Of a DNA stretch of 64,000 bases, positions 4,749 to 54,413 are shown piece by piece (the stretch's first letter is position 1; the number at the start of each line of letters is the position of its first letter). Where the stretch lies: contig NC_053042.1 of NCBI RefSeq assembly GCF_003473485.1, positions 37,538,762 to 37,602,761 on the forward strand. Direction: 5' to 3'. This stretch comes from Medicago truncatula (lineage: Eukaryota; Streptophyta; Magnoliopsida; Fabales; Fabaceae). The position numbers were made by a program, and so were the translations under genes. Below the pieces are notes generated by a model. The model was not told the DNA's origin, ran no database searches, and worked only from the letters and a program-made list of their open reading frames with translations.

Positions 4749-11411
<6,663 letters not shown>

Positions 11412-26611: not shown

Positions 26612-27616
26612 GGGTTATTAGATCTTTACCCCCTGTAATATAGGTCACTTTTGATTTTGCCCCTTGTAATTTTTTTTTTGATTCGGTCTTTGTAAATTTT
26701 TTTTGTTTTAGAATACCCCTATGGTAGCTGATTATACATTTTTGCTGATGTGGCATGCTGTGTCACTTTTTTCGATGACGTGGCGCGCTGACTGTATAAT
26801 TATTTTTATTTTTTAATGGGATACACGTGACATTTATGATTTAAAAAAAAACAAAAAAATAATTATGAAAAAATAAAAATATTAAAAAACAAAAAAATAA
26901 TTATGTAAAAATCTGGTAAAATGAAAAAATCTAGAAAATTTAGTAAAAAAAATCTGGAAAAATTAAAAAAATCTGGTAAAATGAAAATAATCTACAAAAT
27001 TTAATAAAATAAAATCTGGAAAAATTAAAAAAATGAAAAAATTAATCTATTTAAAAAAATTCATATTTGCATATTATTTTCAATAGCGGAAAAATTAAAA
27101 AATTCCGAAAAAATGAAAAAAATTCATATATATATTTTTTTCGAAAGTAAGAAGTTTTATTTTATAAAAAAATGAAAAATTCAGGAACTTAAAATATTTT
27201 GAAATTTATGAATATAATAAGAATAGAATTAAAAATGAAAAGTTCAGATTTTTCTTTCGAAATTAAAAAGTTTGTTTTTTTCATTTTTTTTTGTTTTTCG
27301 AGATTTTTTTTATTAAATTTTCTCGATTTTTTTCATTTTACCAGATTTATATTAATTTTTCCATAAATATTTTTTCATTTTTTAATCATTTTTATTCATT
27401 TTTCCGTTATTTTTCATTTAAAAAAAAATCATAAATGCCACGTCACGTCGTCTGAAAAAGGTGACCCAGCATGCCACATCAGTAAAAATACATAGTCAGC
27501 TGGTCTAGAAGGGTTTTCCAAAACAATTTTTTTTTACAAGGATCGAATCTAATTTTTTTTTTTACAGTGGACAAAACTAAAAGTGATCTATATGACAGGG
27601 GTAAATGCCTACTAAC
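26612..27616. mobile_element. 1-kb foldback TIR element
   Basis: About 150-bp imperfect inverted termini: left reads 'ttaccccctgtaatatagg' and onward to 'gctgatgtggcatgctg', right reads 'catgccacatcag' onward to 'gacaggggtaaatgcc'. The interior is a low-complexity field of 'aaaatctggtaaaatg' words. T-rich flanks hide the target duplication. The half copy at 49376-49620 belongs to the same family. Confidence 0.7.
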
Positions 27617-28733: not shown

Positions 28734-30695
28734 ATGTGCAACGGTTCGAATAGAAAACCTTGTCAAACTGGTTTGATAAGGGAAAATGAATGTGAAAGAC
28801 AAGAAGAACATCATCATAAGATTTCAGCTTTGCTTGAGTTTTCAGCCAAAGATGATGTAATGGCGTTCACAGATGCAGTTGAGAAAGATGATCATAATGT
28901 TGATGAAGTAGGGTTATGGTATGGAAGGAAGGTTGGATCAAAGGAAATGGGATATGAAGAGAGGACACCTCTTATGGTAGCTGCTTTATATGGAAGCAAG
29001 GGTGTGTTGTCTTATATTCTCGGAACCGGTCGTGTTGATGTTAACCGAGTGTGTGGCTCAGATAGGGCTACCGCTCTTCGTTGTGCTGTTTCTGGTTGTT
29101 CTGCTGCTTCTGCCGAGGTTGTCAAACTTCTGCTTGATGCATCTGCAGATGTTAGTTCCGCTGATGCATATCGTAACCGGTGCAGCAACTTGGTTGTCTC
29201 GGTTTCTAATAGTCTCTACGGTTCAAGGAAGAGGATACTACAAGGGATACTAGAAGGGGTAGATGATGTTGATGACGAGGACGACAATTTCCTTAAGGAA
29301 ATAGGTTTCCAAATGGTGGAGAAGCAACAAGACGTAGGTACACCTCACACCGAGAAGAAAGATTATCCCATTGATCCATCCCTACCTGACATAAAGAATG
29401 GAATATATAGTACAGATGAATTTAGGATGTTTACATTCAAAGTGAAGCCTTGTTCAAGGGCTTATTCTCATGATTGGACTGAGTGCCCCTTTGTTCATCC
29501 TGGGGAGAATGCAAGGCGCCGCGATCTGAGGAAATGTCATTACACATGTGTCCCTTGCCCCGAGTTTCGGAAGGGATCATGCAACAAAGGGGATGCTTCT
29601 GAATATGCACATGGTATTTTTGAATGCTGGCTTCATCCTGCTCAATACAGAACAAGGCTTTGCAAGGATGAAACTAGATGCACGAGAAGGGTTTGCTTTT
29701 TCGCTCACAAGCCAGAGGAGCTTCGACCGTTGTATGCTTCTACCGGTTCTGCTCTACCTTCACCTACATCATATTCAAATTCACCTAGTGCTTCTTCAAT
29801 GGATTCTTTCACATTGAGCTCTCTGTCTTCTTTGATACAATCTGCGTCGACGCCACCTTTGACTCCATCTGCAGCATCATCGCCTACGGCTGGAACCATG
29901 TGGCAGACTCAGATTCAGCTTCATGCTGCAGTCCCTACCCTTCAGATGCCGAGAAGCAGATTTAAAACTGCAATGAATGTCAGAAATAATGCTGAATTTC
30001 TCAAACTTGAAAATCGCCTTACAGGTCTTCCATCTCCTTCAAATAGGCTTGCAGGAGTGAATCCTACTAACCTTGAAAACATTTTTGGGTCATCAATACA
30101 ATCTCCGACATCAATACAGGTGCATCAGAGCACAAACCAGCAACTTTGGGGCAATCCTTTTGATCTTACCAATTCAAACGTGATTGGATCATCACAATTT
30201 AGAGTTGATGCCTTTTCGAAGCGTAGCCAAAGCTTTATTGAGTGCAGCAGCATGGCGAGATTTAATTCCGAGCTTCCTTCTGCTAGCTCAGTTGCCATGG
30301 AACCTTCTGCCTTCTCTGGTTGGGGCTCTCCTGATGGAAAATTAGACTGGTCCATCCGCGGCAATGAACTCAATAACATGAGGAAATCTATTTCTTTCGG
30401 CTTTCAAAACAGAAGTAGCACTTCAACAATGGCTGCTGCATTAAGTTCAGTTGCCATGGAACCTTCTGCCTTCTCTGGTTCGGGCTCTCCTGATGGAAAA
30501 TTAGACTGGTCCATCCGCGGCGATGAACTCAATAAAATGAGGAAATCTTATTCTTTCGGATTTCGCAACAGAAGTAGCACTTCAACAATGGCTGCTGCAT
30601 CAAGTGTCGATGATCCAGATGTGTTTTTAAGCCATGAATCTTGGGTTAATTCACTTGTGGAGGATGGTCCAACAATGGAATTTGATCAACATTGA
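28734..30695 (+). CDS. Ankyrin-repeat, tandem CCCH zinc-finger protein (plant RR-TZF type)
   Basis: Single coding exon, 653 residues. Ankyrin-like repeats occupy about 80-165 ([20 protein letters not shown], then a second unit with [20 protein letters not shown]). The conserved [20 protein letters not shown] arginine-rich segment precedes the zinc fingers. Finger 2 is canonical (C310-x5-C316-x4-C321-x3-H325). Finger 1 has C275-x7-C283-x5-S289-x3-H293: its third cysteine is serine (TCT at 29598-29600). The C-terminus carries a 53-residue tandem duplication and the conserved [10 protein letters not shown] motif. Family members bind AU-rich RNA, shuttle between nucleus and P-bodies, and act in salt, ABA and defence responses (SZF1/CZF1 relatives). 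The open frame is intact, so the gene is probably expressed, with finger 1 possibly weakened. Confidence 0.93.
30285..30602 (+). repeat. 159-bp in-frame tandem duplication in CCCH gene
   Basis: Two copies with period 159 (GTTGCCATGG at 30291 and 30450) each encode a 53-residue block with [22 protein letters not shown] and SSTSTMAAA. They differ by eight residues at most, so the duplication is recent. The repeated block is the SPDGK..W motif normally single in the family. Confidence 0.92.
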
Positions 30696-32793: not shown

Positions 32794-35700
32794 TCATTCA
32801 GTATCCCTGAAGCTTCCACTAGTTAGCCACAATTTCTTCTGGATGATAAAAACAACTTCATCACTATCCTGAACAGAGTCGGAACCCGAATCTGCGGTTG
32901 CAACTGCTTCCCAGTGCAAAGCAGTTAAGTACTTCTTCACAAAATCAATCATTGGCTGTTTATCACGGAAGATTACAAAACCGGTAGGTCTAAGCACGCG
33001 GTCCATCTCAATTAATAGATCCTCTGGACTGCAATCTTTCTTTGCTACGTCAGACAAGACAGTCCATGCATGGAGCAAGTCGTAAGTCCGAGGGTATGTT
33101 GAGAATGCTTCACACCTGTTCGAGATGCATCGTGTTAGTTAGAACTTAAGCGTCAAATCAAATTTCTCATCATTCATTAGAACTACCAACAAAAACTGAC
33201 AAAAAAGAAGATGCTGCTAAATAGCGGTGCGCCATGACACTATAGTGTAGCAGTATTCGAACAAATCGTTATTGTTCTACAATATGCTATTTAGTATAAA
33301 ATGTTGTCAAATAGTGGTTGAAGTGGCGCGCAACAACACTATTGTGTAGCTAAATTTGAACAAACTACTATTTTCTGTGATCTGCAATTGACAATATTGA
33401 AATGGAAATATATCAATGAACTTATAATTGAAGTAAACTGGATTCAATACCAGTCATGAGTGGCGCCTATGAGGCCTCTGTCATATATAACTTTAAGTGT
33501 GTTTGGTCCATCTTGAGGTACAACATTCATCACCCATACATCCTTGTCTTTAAGAGCAGCTCCAAATGAACCCATGTTAGCTTTCATATCCATAATATTC
33601 CTTATCGTATCGGATTTGATTTTTTTACTCATGAGACTCCAGTATTTATCAACTCTCTCTCGCCATAGTTCCTGTACCACAAGATAAAATGTAAGCCAAC
33701 AGTTGGTTTATCTAAATGTATACTGTTATTACACAATTTCTATGTTAGAAATAAAAAAAAAATAAAAAAATCATTAACAAGAGGTTCAATTGTAATTTCT
33801 AATTACCGAATCCTTTTCGAACATTTCATTTGAATAGCCAAAATCAGCTAATCTAGGAGGAGGACTGGTCAATCTTGCAGGCCATGGAGCTAAGCCACTA
33901 CCTTTAGCTTTGTTGTCATCTGATAAAATCCAACATAAATTTCAGTAGGTAAGTTTCAAACTCACGGCTTGTTATTTATAACATAAAGGCTAAACCTCTA
34001 AAAAAAATATCTTTCAATAATTAAAAAATCCATTTAATACTCAATTCTCAGGGTTATTTTGTTTCTTTGATGGAAATCAAACAATCCATTGCAGTCAAAG
34101 GATAATAAATCTTGAGCCAGAATGGACCATAGAAATCATAGAATACATATACATTGACAGATAAACCTAAAATGAAAAACTAAAAGAACGTACACTACTA
34201 AAGAAGTATCTATCAACTGATATTATAGAGAAATCTTCATCCGCCCTATGAGCAATAGAATACAAAAGGCCAACAAATAACAGAGAGAAAAAAGAGTACT
34301 CACGTTCACTGTAAGGTGTTATGCAAACTTCCATATTTACTCCAAAAACTGCATCAGGATCAGCGTCAGACTGGCATAGAGGAGGGCGAGTACCAGGTTC
34401 TCTTTTTTTATAGCAATCATTTGTCAAAGGTTTTTGCCAGATAACAGTTTGCTCCTTTTTTGAAGCTATTCTCCAACACATACGCCCCACAAGATCACTC
34501 ATTTCTTTCCATATCCTTAGATTCTCTTCATCCTGAGCATATGCTTCTGGAGACGAGTATGCAAAATAACCTCCTGGCCTGAGAACCCGGTCTAGTTCAA
34601 GAAGTAGTATTCCATCTCTCTGAAGCCAATCAATTCGACAACGAGAACAATGAGCAAGTTCAAAAGATCTGCTTGGGTATGGAAGTCTCTTAGTTCCCAA
34701 CACACCAAGATATGCAGGAATTCCTCTTTCGAGGGCAAATTGGATTTGATTTTGATGCACATCATTTGGTGCCAAGGACATTGTAATGATATCAGATGAA
34801 AGAAGGTATCCTCCAAAACTTGCAACACCACAGCCAACATCAAGCACTGTCCTCAATCTTCCCTCATTGTTTAGATTATTGTTTGAAAAGTTAAGCATCT
34901 GTAAATGCAAGTTGAAACTGGATTGTTAAGAAAATGATTTATCCATGAAATGCAAGCAAATCCAGATAAACTGAATACATCAAACAACCAACATTGTCAA
35001 ACATGATACGATAATGACTCATTTAAAAAAAAATGAGCATATCTAATCTTCAAAAATGCATAGGCACACTTTTATGAAGTGAAATTTTTTCATGTCTAGT
35101 AATTATGAATCAGGTATATTAAGCTACTAAGGTAGGGACCAATTTTTCTAGAAGCTTAAGCTACAAGGTGGTTGCATATAAATGCACAGCTTATAATGTA
35201 TACATCAATATATAAAAGTGTATTAAAATGACATAGTTAGATGTGAGGGACACATTAAAAAATCAAAAAATGAAATAGAGATAAAAAGAAAAAGGGAGGA
35301 GAAAGAATAGGAGAAAAACAAATACTGTGGCGATAAAATATAAGGTGTAGCTATCTCAAATAAATTATTTATATATCATTTTAAATTTACCAAATACACT
35401 TCAAACCATGTATGTTCTGTTTATGTACTAAAAACAGAATATGGATTATTTTGGAATTTCTGGACCATCAAATGAAAATGGAAAATGTTTCACTTGTAGA
35501 AGGAATATGTACAGACACTTGCATAACACAGATATTATCCTATCCCATAGAACTCCTATCTGAAAACATTCTCATGGGCAAAACCAGTAAAACAAGATGC
35601 AGACTTACATTTGCCATTGATGCAATGTACTTATCAGCTCCATAATGAAAATGAGTCCCACCTCCAGGAAACGCTATCTTTTCACCTTTTTCAACCATCC

Positions 35701-41828: not shown

Positions 41829-43716
41829 TGTTTATTGCCGATAAATTGACACACCCGGTGAGACGTGGTTTAAGATAGTTTGCGTTAACTTTCCTAAATT
41901 TCAAAATATAAGAAAAGTTAAAAGTGGCCAACACTTCATGGAGAAGGAACATAAACCAAAGTAATATCCCAGGAAATAACAATTTGAACAAAGAAGATCA
42001 AGTGTTAAACATGCCTCAAATTAGCACTGATCATGTGAAAAATTCACATATTCGAAGGACAAATTTCACTCTGACTCCATATGTGATTCCGTTAGGCTTT
42101 GTTTCTTCAATTTCACGTTCGTTACCACTTATTGCCCTTAAACTTTCTAGCGTCAACGCTAGACAAATGTGCGCCTGAGGAACTACTTTGATCATCAATA
42201 AGCTCTAACCCCACACCTTTCTCATTTACATAAATCTTTAAATTCCCATGGTGGAGAATGAAATATCCGACTCTATAATTTGAATACATCTATATAATTT
42301 TTTTATCTAGGCCACATTAAGTATATTTTTCTTCCAAGTGTCTTCGTTTATTTTGATAACATTACCAAACCTCAACCCTATGAAGTTGAACAAAGCTTCA
42401 TTCCACTTATATATCTAACCAGATGACAAAAGAATGAAGCCCAACCTCTCTCTAATCAGAAAACCTCTCATAAAGGAAAGAGGCGAGCTTATGCATCATC
42501 CAAGAAATTCTAACTCTACTTCACTAAAAACTAACACTCATGCTCATCTATGGATGAGATGGGACACAGTGAGAACTTTAGTGGCTGCTAACCATAGCTA
42601 GAACTTGGCCACTCAATTCAAACTAACAAATTTTGGACCTTGGAACTAACATGTAGTTGTACTTTTATAGTTGCGCCCTTTGGTAATTTCTCATATGCTG
42701 TGTCCTTGTCTTATCCTCTTGGTACTCAACATATTCTTTTATCCCGCGTGGCCGTACTACAATGATTGGAGAGAGCTTATCGAACTTAGCCCCTATGCAA
42801 TGGCAGACAAGGTCCAAACAGTTCGTACACTTCTACGATCGTACTAGGCGATCTAAAATGATTCATCTCCAAACTTCTTACATAGCGCTGCATCTCCATA
42901 CATCGCAAAACTCCTTTCCAGGCTCCAGCGATATATATCTTCTTGTATCGCCACAACAAATATTCAACATGTTCCGCAAAACAACAAAAACGAGCATCAC
43001 AAGTTTAAAATAACTAATTAATTTCCTAAATAGTCACTTATTAGATGCTATAGACCAAGCAATCACTCAATTTCTCGTAAAATATGGGGAACAAGGGTAA
43101 GGTGATAACCAACAATTTTACCAGTTATAAATAAGACCCTGCCAAACATTTTAAAATTCGGTGTCTTACTCTTCCTCATTTTGCACTTCCTTAAACTATA
43201 CAAACCAAAACATCTACTCCATCCTATCCACTTTATTAGGAATAAACATCTCATGCACTCTTCCAAACTTAACAAAAAGATGCCATAGATAAATGGTTTT
43301 AACTTCATAAAGGATGTTTTGAAATAAAAAGAAAAATGTCCTTTGATCAAATTTATGGATAAAACCAATTCCTCAGATCTTGGACACTCATTCCAGCTGA
43401 TAGGTTGATTATGTTTTCTCTCATGTTTCCCACGATTGCCCTACCCTAAACTCTCTCTCCCTTTCTCTCACTAGTTTCTCTCATGTATGTACATTAATAA
43501 ATGTTGACTCGGTAAGAGCGTCCACTACACATTATTAACATAAAGTATGTCATATTGAGGTATGTCTAATATGAACATCTCAAAAATGATTTAGAGGTGG
43601 ATTTTTACTTTTTATGGAAACAAATACTAATAATTGTAGCTATAGAATCCAATAACGACATAACAATCAGTTATAAAAACTTTTTTTTTGTTGGTGAAAT
43701 AAAAAATATTAGAAAA

Positions 43717-43790
43717 CACTAGGAGGAGGGGTTGAACCTCCGACCTTGTGGTTAAGGTCCACACGTTCTAACCCACTGAGCTATTGTAGC
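43717..43790 (-). tRNA. tRNA-Asn-derived pseudogene, anticodon position now CTT
   Basis: 74-nt tRNA shape in the first unit. D-arm, T-arm and the anticodon stem are kept, but the anticodon loop reads accttaa instead of ctgttaa, so position 33 is C instead of the invariant T and the anticodon reads CTT. The acceptor stem halves (gctacaa / tcctagt) no longer pair well. Probably inactive. Confidence 0.8.
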
Positions 43791-45009
43791 TTCTCATGTT
43801 TGTAAACTTGTTAACATATTTTTGAATTAATTTTTGATAAGTATATCTTCATAGTGTTACACTTAACATTGATGATACTCTCTCAACTTCGTAACTTCGT
43901 AGTATCATCCAAAATATAATTATATATTTCTTTTCATTGCATAATATCACACTTTTATAGTACAAGTCCAACCACTACAAGTTGTGCCCTTTGGTAATTT
44001 CTCCTATGAGGTGTCCTTGTCTTGTCCTTTTGGTACTCAACATTTTCTTTTATTCCTCATACTACAATGATTGGAGACATCTTATCAAACTTAGCCCCTA
44101 TGCAATGGCAGACAAGGTCCCAAGAGTTCGTACACTTCTACGTTTGTACTGGGCGATCTAAAACGATACATCTTCAAGCTTTTTTCCTAGCAATGCATCT
44201 CCATACATCGCTAAACACCTTTCCAAAGATATATCTTCTTGTATCGCCACAACAAATATTCAACATGTTCCACAAAACGAGCATCAATAGTTCAAAATGA
44301 CTAAATGACAATCAAAACTAACTAATTTCGTAAATAGTCACTGATTAGATACTATAGAGCATGCAATCGTTCAATTTCTCATGAAATATGGGGGATAAGT
44401 GTAAGGTGATAACCAACAATTTTACTGGTCATAAATAATAACCTGCCAAACATTTTGAAGTTTGTTCTCTTACTCTTCCTCGTTTTGCACCTCTTTAAAC
44501 TAAATAAACCAAAATATCTACCCCTTCATATCCACCTTATTAGGAATGAATACCTCATGTACTCTTCGAAAGTTAACAAAAAGATGTCATAAATCAATGG
44601 TATTAACTTCAACAAGGATGTTTTGAAATAAAAAGAAAAATGTATTTTTATCAAATATATGGATAAACCATTCCTCTGATCTTGGACATTCCTTCCAGGT
44701 GATAGGTTAATTATATTTTCTCTCATGTTTCCCATGATGGCCCTCCCCCAAACTCTCTCCTTTTCTCTCATGTGTTTATATTCACGAACGTTGACTCGGT
44801 AAAAACGTTCTCCTCACATTACTAACATAAAGTATGTAATATTGAGGTATGTCTAATATGAAGATCTCAAAAATGATTTAAAGGTGAATTTTTACTTTTT
44901 ATGGAAGAAAACACTAATAATTGTAGCTATAGAATCCAATACCGACATAACAATTAGTTATAAGAGCTTTTTTTTTGTTGGTAAAATAAAAAAATAAAAA
45001 AATAAAAAA

Positions 45010-45083
45010 CGCTAGAAGGAGGGGTTGAACCTCCGACCTCGTGGTTAACAGCCACACGCTCTAACCCACTGAGCTATTCCAGC
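45010..45083 (-). tRNA. tRNA-Asn(GUU)
   Basis: Nuclear-type tRNA-Asn of 74 nt: acceptor GCTGGAA pairs with TTCTAGC, D-arm GCTC/GAGC, anticodon loop CTGTTAA (GTT), T-arm GGAGG-TTCAACC-CCTCC, discriminator G. Box A TAGCTCAGTGGG is intact. The base closing the anticodon stem is a T-G wobble here. A T-run directly follows on the minus strand, serving as pol III terminator. Confidence 0.92.
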
Positions 45084-45199
45084 TTCTCATATTTGTAAAC
45101 TGGTTAACATATTTTTGAATTAATTTTTGATAGGTATATCTTCATAATGTCACACTTAACACTGATGATACTCTCTCAACTTCGTAGTATAACCCAAAA

Positions 45200-45208
<9 letters not shown>

Positions 45209-45263
<55 letters not shown>
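45209..45263. repeat. (AT)n microsatellite
   Basis: About 27 AT dinucleotides expanded at a point where the sister units have only 'taattatatatttatttt'. Confined to one unit of the array. Confidence 0.95.
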
Positions 45264-45264
<1 letters not shown>

Positions 45265-46309
45265 CATTGCATAATATCACACTTTTATAGTACAAGTCCA
45301 ACCACTACAAGTTGTGTCCTTTGGTAATTTCACCTATGAGGCGTCCTTGTCTAATACTCTCGGTACTCAACGTTTTCTTTTATTCCTGATACTACAATGA
45401 TTGGAGACATCTTATAAAAACTTAGCCCATATGCAATGGCAGACAAGGTCCCAAGGGTTCGTACACTTCTACGATTGTACTGGGCGATCGAAAATGATAC
45501 ATCTCCAAGCTTCTTTCCTAGCAATGCATCTCCATACATTGCCAAACACCTTTCCAACGATATATCTTCTTGTATCGCTACAACAAATATTCAACATGGT
45601 CCAGAAAACAACCAAAATGAGCATCAATAGTTTAAAATGACTAAATGACAATCAAAACTAATTAATTTCGTAAATACTCACTGATTAGATGCTATAAATC
45701 ATGCAATCATTCAATTTCTCATAAAATATGGGGGGTAAGTGTAACCCTGCCAAACATTTTGAAGTTCTTCTTCATTTTGCAACTCCTTAAACTAAACAAA
45801 CCAAAATATCTACTCCTTCATATCCACCTTATTAGGGATTAACACCTCATGTACTCTTCGAAAGATAACAAAAATATGTCATAAATCAATGGTTTTAACT
45901 TCAACAAGGATGTTTTGAAATAAAAAGAAAAATGTCCTTTGATCAAATTTATGGATAAACCATTCCTGTGATCTTGGACATTCCTCCCAAGTGATGATAG
46001 GTTGAATAAATTTTCTCTCATGTTTCCCACGATGGTCCTCCCCCAAACTCTCTCCTTTTCTCTCACTATTTTCTCTCATGTGTTACATTCACGGACGTTG
46101 ACTCGGTAAAAACGTTCTCCACACATTATTAACATAAAGTATGTAATATAGAGGTATGTCTAATATGAACATCTCGAAAATGATTTAAAGGTGGATTTTT
46201 ACTTTTTATGGAAGGAAACACAAATAATTGTAGCTATAGAATACAATACCGACGTAACAATCAGTTATAAAAGCTTTTTTTGTTGGTGAAATCAAAAAAA
46301 TTTAGAAAA

Positions 46310-46333
46310 CGCTAGAAGGAGGGGTTGAACCTC

Positions 46334-46366
<33 letters not shown>

Positions 46367-46383
46367 CACTGAGCTATTCCAGC
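46310..46383 (-). tRNA. tRNA-Asn(GUU)
   Basis: Fully paired cloverleaf with GTT anticodon, canonical stems throughout and CCA not encoded. TTTT lies immediately 3' on the minus strand, then a longer T-run. Best-preserved copy together with the next one. No introns. Plastid trnN differs strongly, so this is not organellar DNA. Confidence 0.95.
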
Positions 46384-47560
46384 TTCTCATGTTTACAAAC
46401 TGGTTAACATATTTTTGAATTAATTTTTGATAGGTATATCTTCATAATGTCACACTAAACACTGATGATACTCTCTCAACTTCGTAGTATAACCCAAAAT
46501 ATAATTATATATTTATTTTGATTGCATAATATCACACTTTTATAGTACAAGTCCAACCACTACAAGTTGTGCCCTTTGGTAATTTCTCCTATGAGGCGTC
46601 CTTGTCTTATCCTCTCGGTACTCAACATTTTCTTTTATTCCTGATACTACAACGATTGGAGACATGTTATCAAACTTAGCCCCCATGCAATGGCATACAA
46701 GGTCCCAAGAGTTCGTACACTTCTACGATCGTACTGGGCGATCTAAAATGATACATCTCTAAGCTTCTTTCCTAGCAATGTATCTCCAAACATCGCCAAA
46801 CACCTTTCCAACGATATATCTTATTGTATCGCTACAACAAATATTCAACATGGTCCAGAAAACAACCAAAATGAGCATCAATAGTTTAAAATGACTAAAT
46901 GACAATCAAAACTAATTAATTTCGTAAATACTCACTGATTAGATGCTATAAATCATGCAATCATTCAATTTCTCATAAAATATGGGGGGTAAGTGTAACC
47001 CTGCCAAACATTTTGAAGTTCTTCCTCATTTTGCAACTCCTTAAACTAAACAAACCAAAATATCTACTCCTTCATATCCACCTTATTAGGGATTAACACC
47101 TCATGTACTCTTCGAAAGATAACAAAAATATGTCATAAATCAATGGTTTTAACTTCAACAAGGATGTTTTGAAATAAAAAGAAAAATGTCATTTGATCAA
47201 ATTTATGGATAAACCATTCCTCTGATCTTAGACATTCCTTCCATGTGATAGGTTGATTATATTTTCTCTCATGTTTCCTACGATGACCCTCCCCCAAACT
47301 CTCTCCTTTTCTCTCACAATTTTCTCTCATGTGTTTACATTCACGAACGTTGACTCGGTAAAAACGCTCTCCACACATTATTAACATAAAGTATGTAATA
47401 TAGAGGTATGTCTAATATGAACATCTCGAAAATGATTTAAAGGTGGATTTTTACTTTTTATGGAAGGAAACACAAATAATTGTAGCTATAGAATACAATA
47501 CCGACGTAACAATCAGTTATAAAAGCTTTTTTTGTTGGTGAAATCAAAAAAATTTAGAAA

Positions 47561-47584
47561 CGCTAGAAGGAGGGGTTGAACCTC

Positions 47585-47617
<33 letters not shown>

Positions 47618-47634
47618 CACTGAGCTATTCCAGC
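47561..47634 (-). tRNA. tRNA-Asn(GUU)
   Basis: Identical over the 74 nt to the copy at 46310-46383. The flanks are also nearly identical, so this unit and the previous one result from a recent duplication of 1251 bp. Confidence 0.95.
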
Positions 47635-48814
47635 TTCTCATGTTTACAAACTGGTTAACATATTTTTGAATTAATTTTTGATAGGTATATCTTCATAATG
47701 TCACACTAAACACTGATGATACTCTCTCAACTTCGTAGTATAACCCAAAATATAATTATATATTTATTTTGATTGCATAATATCACACTTTTATAGTACA
47801 AGTCCAACCACTACAAGTTGTGCCCTTTGGTAATTTCTCCTATGAGGCGTCCTTGTCTTATCCTCTCGGTACTCAACATTTTCTTTTATTCCTGATACTA
47901 CAACGATTGGAGACATGTTATCAAACTTAGCCCCCATGCAATGGCATACAAGGTCCCAAGAGTTCGTACACTTCTACGATCGTACTGGGCGATCTAAAAT
48001 GATACATCTCTAAGCTTCTTTCCTAGCAATGTATCTCCAAACATCGCCAAACACCTTTCCAACGATATATCTTCTTGTATCGCTCCAACAAATATTCAAC
48101 ATGGTCCAGAAAACAACCAAAATGAGCATCAATAGTTTAAAATGACTAAATGACAATCAAAACTAATTAATTTCGTAAATACTCACTGATTAGATGCTAT
48201 AAATCATGCAATCATTCAATTTCTCATAAAATATGGGGGGTAAGTGTAACCCTGCCAAACATTTTGAAGTTCTTCTTCATTTTGCAACTCCTTAAACTAA
48301 ACAAACCAAAATATCTACTCCTTCATATCTACCTTATTAGGGATTAACACCTCATGTACTCTTCGAAAGATAACAAAAATATGTCATAAATCAATGGTTT
48401 TAACTTCAACAAGGATGTTTTGAAATAAAAAGAAAAATGTCCTTTGATCAAATTTATGGATAAACCATTCCTGTGATCTTGGACATTCCTCCCAAGTGAT
48501 GATAGGTTGAATAAATTTTCTCTCATGTTTCCCACGATGGTCCTCCCCCAAACTCTCTCCTTTTCTCTCACTATTTTCTCTCATGTGTTACATTCACGGA
48601 CGTTGACTCGGTAAAAACGTTCTCCACACATTATTAACATAAAGTATGTAATATTGAGGTATGTCTAATATGAACATCTCGAAAATGATTTAAAGGTGGA
48701 TTTTTACTTTTTATGGAAGCAAACACTAATAATTGTAGCTAAAGAATCCAATAACGACGTAACAATCAGTTATAAAAGCTTTTTTTTGTTGGTGAAATCA
48801 AAACAATTAGAAAA

Positions 48815-48888
48815 CGCTAAAAGGAGGGGTTGAACCTCTGACCTTGTGGTTAACAACCATACGCTCTAACCCACTGAGCTATTCCAGC
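48815..48888 (-). tRNA. tRNA-Asn(GUU), slightly degenerate
   Basis: GTT anticodon kept in a loop TTGTTAA. One mismatch appears in the anticodon stem (A opposite C), one at the base of the T-stem (A opposite C), and one wobble in the acceptor. It may still fold, but processing could be reduced. Confidence 0.85.
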
Positions 48889-49194
48889 TTCTCATGTTTG
48901 TAAACTGGTTAACATATTTTTGAATTAATATTTGATAGGTATATCTTCATAATGTCACACTTAACACTGATGATACTCTCTCAACTTCTTATTATCACCC
49001 AAAATATAAGTATATATTTATTTTGATTACATAATATCAGACTTTAATATGAACATCTCAAAAATGATTTAAAGGTGGATTTTTACTTTTTTATGGATGC
49101 AAACACTAATAATTGTAGCTATAGAATCCAATACCGACATAACAATAAGTTATAAAAGCTTTTTATTGTTGGTGAAATCAAAAAAATTAAAAAA

Positions 49195-49218
49195 CGCTAG
49201 AAGGAGGGGTTGAACCTC

Positions 49219-49251
<33 letters not shown>

Positions 49252-49268
49252 CACTGAGCTATTCCTGC
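49195..49268 (-). tRNA. tRNA-Asn(GUU), one acceptor mismatch
   Basis: Canonical except position 3 of the acceptor (GCAGGAA), which faces A and cannot pair. It sits in the truncated unit, only 380 bp from the previous copy. Confidence 0.88.
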
Positions 49269-49375
49269 TTCTCATGTTTGTAAACTGGTTAACATATTTT
49301 TGAATTAATTTTTGATAGGTATATCTTCATAATGTCACACTTAACACTGATGATACTCTCTCAACTTCGTAGTAT

Positions 49376-49620
49376 AATATTTTTTTGTTTTTTTAATTTT
49401 TTCATAAATGCCATGTGTACCCCATAAAAAATAAAAAATAAAAATAATTATACAGTCAGCGCGCCACATCAGCAAAAATGCACAGTCAACTGGTCTAAGG
49501 GGGTTTTCCAAAACAAAAAAAAATTTACAAGGACCGAATCCAATTTTTTTTTTTTTTTTTTTTACAGGGGGCAAAACCAAAAGTGACCTATATTACAGGG
49601 GTGTAAAGGCCTATTAACCC
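49376..49620. mobile_element. Half copy of the 26.6-kb foldback family inside the array
   Basis: Right half of the family at 26612: 'cagtcaactggtctaaggg', 'tttacaaggaccgaatcc', 'acctatattacaggggtg', ending CCTATTAACCC. It interrupts the tandem unit at 'cttcgtagtata'. The left half is missing. Confidence 0.7.
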
Positions 49621-50500
49621 TATATATATTTTGATTGCATAATATCACACTTTTATAGTACAAGTCCAACCACTACAAGTTGTGCCCTTTGGTAATTTCA
49701 CCTATGAGGCGTCCTTGTCTTATACTCTCGGTACTCAACATTTTCTTTTATTCCTGATACTAGAATGATTGGAGACATCTTATCAAACTTAGCCCCTATG
49801 CAATGGCAGACAAGGTCCCAAGAGTTCGTACACTACTACAATCGTACTCTGCGATCTAAAACGATACATCTCCAAGCTTCTTTCCTAGCAATGCATCTCC
49901 ATACATCGCCAAACACCTTTCTAACGATATATCTTCTTGTATCGCCACAACAAATATTCAAAATGTTCCACAAAACAACCAAAATGAGCATCAATAGTTC
50001 TAAATGACTAAATGACAATCAAAACTAATTAATTTCGTAAATAGTCACTGATTAGATGCCATAGATCTTGCAATCATTCAATTTCTTATAAAATATGGGG
50101 GTAAGTGTAACCCTGTCAAACATTTTGAAGTTTGTTCTCCTACTTTTTGCAGCTCCTTAAACTAAACAAACCAAAATATCTACTCCTTCATATCCACCTT
50201 ATTAAGAATGAACACCTCATGTACTCTTTGAAAGTTAACAAAAATATGTCATAAATCAATGGTTTTAACTTCAAGAAGGATGTTTTGAAATAAAAAGAAA
50301 AATGTCCTTTGATCAAATTTATGGATAAACCATTCCTCTGATCTTGGACATTCCTTCGAGATGATAGGTTGATTATATTTTCTCTCATGTTTCCCACGAT
50401 GGACCTCCCCCAACCTCTCTCCCTTTCTCTCATTATTTTCTCTCATGTGTTTACATTCACGAATGTTGACTCGCTAAAAACGTTCTCCACACATTATTAA

Positions 50501-50533
50501 CATAAGAGTGCCCCGGAGGGCACTCGTTAACAT
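50501..50533. mobile_element. 33-bp insertion with 9-bp target duplication
   Basis: Compared with sister units, 33 extra bases starting GAGTGCCCCGGAGGGCACTC and ending GTTAACATTTCCC sit between two copies of ttaacataa. The word matches the termini of the MITE family at 25934 and 52670, so this is a collapsed Mutator-type copy or excision remnant. Confidence 0.7.
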
Positions 50534-50612
50534 TTCCCTTAACATAAAGTATGTAATATTGAGGTGTGTCTAATATGAACCTCTCGAAAATGATTTAAAG
50601 GTGGACCTTACT

Positions 50613-53819: not shown

Positions 53820-54413
53820 TTAATTAGTTGCATTTGATGGTGGTGGTGGAGGTTGAATTTGAGGTCTTTTACGCTTCTTTTTCTCATAGCTGATACCTCT
53901 AGCTTTCGATTGAGAATCCCTAACTTCACGAAGAAAGAGTCTAACAGCACGAGCACCAAAAGGGTTATCTTCAGGTTTCCCACCATTTTCTTCAAAAGCA
54001 GCTCTTAGTCTTCCAATCAATGCATCAAGACTTCCCCAAGCTTGTCGTAGAGGACAAGGACAAGGTGCAGGTGGGTTTGGATGACCAAAAAATGGACAAA
54101 TCTGTGAATGAACCTTAGTTTTCCCAAACTGATCAAGATACCTTAAAAATTCAAGAACATGTGCTCCACTACAACGTGAGAGTGAAAGTGGTGGTCTATG
54201 GTTTCTTAGGTATTGACCAAAAGTGTTCCAGTCTCTTCTTTTTTGATTCTCATAGCGACTTAGAGTGTTTGTGTTTGTTGCTGGTGGTACTGCTGAAGAA
54301 CTAGAAGATGTGAAATTTGAGATGTTTTTGTTGTCTTCTGAGGTTGTTGTGTTGGTGAAGTTGATGATATTTTTTGTTGATGATGATGAGTTGAATTCTT
54401 CAAATGAATTCAT
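53820..54413 (-). CDS. ALOG-domain (LSH / LIGHT-SENSITIVE HYPOCOTYLS) transcription regulator
   Basis: Single exon, 197 residues, the normal form for the family (about 170-220). After a Ser/Thr/Asn-rich N-terminus, the ALOG domain spans about 50-175: [40 protein letters not shown], then the zinc-ribbon insert [20 protein letters not shown], and [20 protein letters not shown] with [19 protein letters not shown]. The domain derives from a transposon-type recombinase DNA-binding domain. A basic KKKRKRP near the end is the conserved nuclear signal, followed by a proline run. LSH proteins act at organ boundaries, in meristems, light responses and, in legumes, nodule organ identity. Which LSH this is cannot be fixed by eye. 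Its neighbours are repeats on both sides. Confidence 0.96.

Follow-up and report, generated by a model that had tools for sequence, protein, structure and literature searches.

The window analysed here, a 64,000-nucleotide (nt) stretch of the Medicago truncatula genome (C1:37538762-37602761), contains a tandem array of six transfer RNA (tRNA)-Asn-type sequences that span window positions 43717-49268, all on the minus strand and head to tail. The comparisons below point, with a probability of roughly 0.7, to an origin by capture of a tRNA-Asn cassette at the joint of a tandem duplication and by unequal exchange, the array now being a dispensable surplus of tRNA-Asn genes. The two edges of the array, the mosaic structure of its central units, a G at position 17 (G17) of all six tRNAs and the cassette flanks in common with a locus on C5 were observed directly.

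Array layout and the six tRNA copies

ARAGORN identified six minus-strand tRNA genes of 74 nt starting at 43717, 45010, 46310, 47561, 48815 and 49195. All six exceeded the Rfam tRNA gathering score of 29 bits (40.5, 68.3, 71, 71, 54.7 and 66 bits, in that order), and a repeat search found families up to 300 nt long that recur in register across the array with a spacing of mostly 1251-1331 bp, confirming the tandem minus-strand genes described in the original prediction. The tRNA-to-tRNA distances are 1293, 1300, 1251, 1254 and 380 bp, with gaps between the genes of 1219, 1226, 1177, 1180 and 306 bp. The predicted unit length of 1.25-1.33 kb therefore fits four intervals (1251-1300 bp) but not the fifth, whose unit is short by about 870 bp. 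In this 380-bp interval, from 48815 to 49195, the first 148 unit positions run straight into position 1017 and beyond. Local duplication was considered as the cause of the spacing and dropped in favor of an internal deletion of most of one block of segment R and repeat piece (both described below), because the interval joins the start of segment R to the end of the repeat piece; sequence comparison placed the deletion joint at 49040-49050 on the minus strand. In the genome searched (429.9 Mb in 42 contigs), 28 other tRNA-Asn matches were found, with no comparable array among them.

The six copies comprise two canonical, two nearly canonical and two decayed tRNAs. The copies at 46310-46383 and 47561-47634 (71 bits each) have the same sequence, with a canonical cloverleaf and G17; they form 20 Watson-Crick pairs and one G-U pair, like 19 mutually identical dispersed genes, and the canonical dispersed copies L003 and L039 also score 71 bits. 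The tRNA-Asn(GTT) at 45010-45083 (68.3 bits) has one additional G-U pair and is canonical in the rest, and that at 49195-49268 (66 bits) has one A-A mismatch in the acceptor stem. An intact cloverleaf with GTT in a CTGTTAA loop was found in 45010, 46310 and 47561, was broken by the one mismatch in 49195, and was lacking in 43717 and 48815; the earlier count of four canonical or near-canonical copies thus stands with the reservation that 49195 is near but mismatched. The tRNA-Asn(GTT) at 48815-48888 (54.7 bits) is decayed, with two A-C mismatches (anticodon stem and T stem). ARAGORN assigned Asn(GTT) to five of the copies and Lys(CTT) to the one at 43717-43790 (40.5 bits). Its three stem mismatches and ACCTTAA anticodon loop indicate decay rather than a new isotype; a real Lys(CTT) gene was rejected and the copy is regarded as a tRNA-Asn-derived pseudogene.

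Every copy retains intact A and B boxes, and the first run of four or more T residues begins at +1 in five of them and at +9 in 47561. G17, in the D loop, is present in 6/6 array copies, while T stands there in each of the 27 other matches that extend over the site (the 28th does not); on the simplest reading, this change is older than the amplification. Of the 19 dispersed identical genes, 16 have a CAA that starts at -3 to -9; the array has no such copy (0/6). Because no array copy has CAA where most dispersed genes have it, transcription of the array is probably weak or silenced; the motif is not an absolute requirement of an intact gene, as three of the 19 dispersed copies are without it. 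The copies at 45010, 46310 and 47561 could still yield a working G17 tRNA-Asn; those at 43717 and 48815 are decayed.

Unit anatomy, array edges and a related locus on C5

On the minus strand, each unit runs from the tRNA through about 100 nt of 3' flank, segment R, a repeat piece of about 462 nt and about 150 nt of upstream flank to the next tRNA. Three parts can thus be distinguished: a tRNA cassette of about 0.3 kb, segment R of about 0.46 kb (unit positions ~102-562), and a dispersed-repeat piece of about 0.46 kb that makes up about one third of the unit. Segment R has just two genome matches outside the array, of 49 and 55 nt. The repeat piece has at least 43 matched stretches outside the array with 65-91% identity, a lower bound because 40 of 82 candidates were scored, and some sites yield two stretches. 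The dispersed repeat family starts with TGATAACC, has ragged ends (copies among L015-L038 and L062-L072) and holds a TATA-like CTATAAAAG; several of 13 compared copies have common sequence beyond 1.4 kb. In a pattern scan of these 13 copies, no primer site of the TGGTATC type appeared, and the TGG.GCC-type pattern gave three isolated matches in them, two of which lie inside the repeat.

Sequence comparison resolved six blocks of R plus repeat piece, all on the minus strand, at 42656-43600, 43952-44888, 45282-46194, 46537-47446, 47788-48699 and 49650-50604. In the leftmost block, the repeat continues past the point at which it is cut in the others. No other unit has this continuation of about 196 nt (42473-42668, minus strand); in two match tables, the repeat piece and the continuation adjoin at 14 or more dispersed sites. 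Since the continuation at the left edge is also found elsewhere, the undisturbed order is R followed by the repeat in its longer form; the tRNA cassette is found solely where a cut repeat precedes the next R. The right edge, at ~50616, corresponds to unit position 102, the start of segment R. The span of 42661-50612 proposed previously is therefore close on the right, where homology extends to 50616; on the left, the last unit passes into an ongoing dispersed repeat, with matches to other sites out to ~42473. The start of the repeat piece is kept in the two leftmost copies, and the other four have a common deletion there. Divergence between the leftmost block and the remaining five amounts to 12.3-13.7% for R and 13.3-15.3% for the repeat piece.

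The tRNA together with both cassette flanks aligns to one other locus, C5:19272914, which is the sole outside match of the upstream flank among the matches listed; by eye, the flanks of the other 27 tRNA-Asn copies are unlike those of the cassette. Between the majority sequence of the array and the C5 relative, the tRNA differs at 1/74 sites and the flanks at 32/213 (15.0%; one-sided p=0.0004), which indicates that constraint, or correction from other copies, acted on the tRNA until the array arose. The split of the leftmost block is about as deep as this split of the cassette flanks from C5, which fits a single event of duplication plus capture.

From this arrangement the following course may be proposed. 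The starting point would have been segment R followed by a member of the dispersed repeat family. A tandem duplication of R and the first ~460 bp of the repeat would then have taken in the tRNA-Asn cassette of about 0.3 kb at its joint, the cassette having been copied with its own flanks from a locus like C5:19272914 as filler. Filler DNA is known at repair joints. Unequal exchange may subsequently have raised the number of units to seven R-repeat blocks and six cassettes, after which one block would have lost ~870 bp and one unit would have gained an insertion.

Several further features of the dispersed loci were observed. Directly after the tRNA-Asn gene on C5, the 3' flank is present in six tandem copies of 263 bp with a 99% match and without the tRNA (L039 337-1915; C5 ~19271336-19272914). 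Adjoining these repeats, at L039 ~297-350 on the minus strand, a stretch reads by eye EDGRGPSIWDTFSHIPG, a putative beta-glucosidase (GH1) motif. The tRNA-Asn matches L042 (C4:6311156) and L060 (C4:6327993) lie 17 kb apart, have upstream flanks similar by eye, and probably represent a second, smaller local duplication; one of the two matches covers the first 50 nt only. The dispersed tRNA-Asn genes of L003 and L052 each have another tRNA gene no more than 1.4 kb away (at 175-248 and 1621-1702, respectively).

Exchange between units and possible constraint on the tRNA

The three central units are mosaics. The block ending at 48699 differs from the one ending at 46194 at 2/449 sites in R and 19/463 in the repeat piece, and from the one ending at 47446 at 16/446 sites in R and 2/463 in the repeat piece. 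It is thus like the third block in R and like the fourth in the repeat piece, the three blocks switching partner near the boundary between the two parts (3/36 sites off pattern). The odd-one-out pattern at the 36 informative sites falls into 7 runs, against 21.5 expected (0/10000 shuffles).

The original prediction had offered either selection on the tRNA or recent homogenization for the preserved tRNAs inside decaying units, and had named as evidence against its proposal a tRNA diverging at the same rate as the spacer with no RNA polymerase III transcripts. Recent homogenization is supported by the mosaic units. On the sequence side, the tRNA varies about as much as its flanks over all six copies, as that condition required. 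The minimum number of changes over all six copies is 14/74 in the tRNA and 39/212 in the flanks (one-sided p=0.61); without 43717 it is 6/74 and 27/212 (p=0.20). When windows of 74 sites were compared across the five copies with long units (49195 being omitted), the tRNA had 13 changes against a mean of 13.7, and without 43717 it had 5 against 7.1, with 19% of windows as low. Of the 136 changes confined to one unit in R and the repeat piece, 39 are C-to-T or G-to-A, roughly double the reverse transitions when scaled to the sites available, and all four changes in 48815 are of this type; the excess in R and the repeat piece was counted neither for nor against methylation-type mutation.

Some observations weigh against capture at a duplication joint followed by decay of a dispensable surplus. 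If 43717 and 48815 are both set aside, changes number 2/74 in the tRNA and 20/212 in the flanks (p=0.045), and with 45010, 46310 and 47561 alone the tRNA has 1 change against a mean of 6.7, among the lowest 1.5% of windows, which would fit retained function; both subsets were picked post hoc. The ~30 nt that separate the repeat piece from the first recognizable base of the cassette match neither parent. The C5 locus is a relative of the donor and not necessarily the donor itself, and the order of events is a reconstruction from one genome. As to expression, four of the six array copies have CAA at -12, and the C5 relative and two other dispersed copies are without CAA near the gene. Because the C5 relative shares this state, the loss of CAA in the array is best counted as one inherited trait, not six.

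The low count in the three best copies, the intact A and B boxes in 6/6 and the canonical or, in 45010, nearly canonical folds of those three would also suit an array in which selection maintains the central copies as a functional tRNA-Asn reserve, like the Arabidopsis Ser-Tyr-Tyr genes in root tips. We consider this unlikely. The subset was picked by its good tRNAs, and adding 48815 and then 43717 returns the tRNA to 5 changes against 7.1 and to 13 against 13.7; 46310 and 47561, with flanks that differ at 3/219 sites, seem to stem from a recent duplication; and at least 19 identical dispersed genes are already present in the genome. A tRNA poorer in changes than the spacer is accordingly seen only in the best three or four copies chosen post hoc, and not over all six. 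The preserved core appears to owe much to exchange and recent duplication, with constraint on the core possible but unproven. By analogy, the array could also supply a distinct pool of G17 tRNA-Asn that most tissues keep silent and certain cells (e.g., root tip or nodule) activate. It would then be a legume counterpart of the Arabidopsis Ser-Tyr-Tyr cluster, with an independent origin via capture of a tRNA gene at a duplication joint; we regard this as highly improbable.

Still less probable is that the unit itself is a mobile element or a tRNA-derived short interspersed nuclear element (SINE) amplified in place. A dispersed family with a defined start makes up a third of the unit and there is a tRNA in each unit, but the repeat piece is dispersed on its own and R is not, no outside match among the 40 of 82 candidates scored spans repeat and cassette, and a full tRNA gene followed by a T-run takes the place of a degenerate SINE head. 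Dispersed tRNA-headed units with a tail, as expected of such a SINE, were not found among these candidates, R being confined to the array save for its two short matches. That the array is an assembly artefact is scarcely credible: tandem repeats are prone to mis-assembly and the number of units could be wrong, but the six R-repeat blocks differ pairwise by 2.0-13.9%, and private indels and the insertion let the units be told apart.

Capture at a duplication joint, with the array as surplus, remains the preferred reading. The insertion lies in the rightmost unit at ~49374-49620 and is similar, by sequence comparison, to window positions 26612-26866 (~70% identity with gaps). One unit contains an (AT)n run near 45200-45260. 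Protein-coding units were rejected on the basis of two sample open reading frames of the units, neither of which gave a Pfam match. There are protein-coding stretches to either side of the array, with a CCCH zinc finger and ankyrin repeats at 28734-30695, a methyltransferase at 34167-34910 and an ALOG domain at 53820-54413. Rfam matches to two microRNA families of Medicago, MIR2630 (both strands) and MIR5284, were obtained at 573-802 and 10372-10482.

Comparison with known tRNA clusters

The array has the features of a plant tandem tRNA-gene cluster: genes of one isotype in head-to-tail units with a common spacer, and growth by local tandem duplication with exchange between units, as seen in the mosaics. 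It falls short of a density of at least three tRNA genes per kb, the working criterion of a survey of 69 plants (PMC11700998), which serves for surveying and does not define a cluster biologically. Passages of that survey describe Pro, Tyr-Ser and Ile clusters and name no Asn cluster; Medicago occurs once in its main text, in a comparison drawn from an earlier survey, and the 2011 survey by Michaud et al. included M. truncatula (via PMC11700998). A literature search of titles and the starts of abstracts, with subscription papers outside its reach, found no plant tandem tRNA-Asn array, which is not proof of absence.

Few plant tRNA clusters have been described, and the array brings a legume example with Asn as its isotype; long-unit arrays of this sort slip past a threshold of three genes per kb. 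With a donor-like locus and both edges still readable, the array is well suited to studying the birth of tRNA clusters; it is less usual for the joint, the donor-like locus and the exchange to be legible together in one genome. Since G17 separates array transcripts from the 27 other matched tRNA-Asn copies covering the site, expression can be tested in tRNA-seq data.

Two further systems share traits with the array. The unit of the human tRNA tandem repeat at 1q23.3 is said to hold several isotypes. That repeat is alike in its large tRNA-bearing unit of variable number and differs in having 7.3-kb units, 9-43 per allele, with CTCF binding, according to parts of PMC4041453. Entamoeba also carries tRNA genes in tandem units, including Asn(GTT)-Lys(CTT) [NK] arrays, but passages of PMC2652664 describe almost all of its tRNA genes as arrayed and most units as uniform within an isolate, whereas the present array is small, decaying and accompanied by many dispersed genes.

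Judged by its organization, the array belongs to a known kind, the plant tRNA clusters, and is closest to the tRNA-Cys and Ser-Tyr-Tyr clusters of Arabidopsis thaliana. As described in portions of PMC10701932, the tRNA-Cys(GCA) cluster on chromosome 5 likewise consists of head-to-tail units with one tRNA each and a single isotype; its units are 84-94% identical, a divergence similar to that found here, and it has an edge pseudogene and transposable-element sequence. Three of its four reference copies are unique to the cluster, a further likeness, and there are 4-6 units depending on the accession. It differs in its isotype, in its unit length (~420 bp against ~1.25 kb) and in the annotation of its repeat as a Helitron, the repeat here being unclassified. 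The Cys cluster varies in unit number and is largely silenced (PMC10701932). The Ser-Tyr-Tyr cluster, in the sections of PMC12308677 that describe it, has long, mostly non-tRNA units, grew by tandem duplication, has a core of the major type between pseudogene-rich flanks, much as an intact core lies between decayed flanks here, and is set apart from dispersed copies by variants. It contains two isotypes, is silent in most tissues and is reactivated in root tips (PMC12308677). With 27 units of three tRNA genes each in almost 40 kb, about 1.5 kb per unit, it is much larger than the array, and its units show that long, largely non-tRNA units, noted as unfamiliar for an Asn array in the original prediction, have a precedent in plants (PMC10701932).

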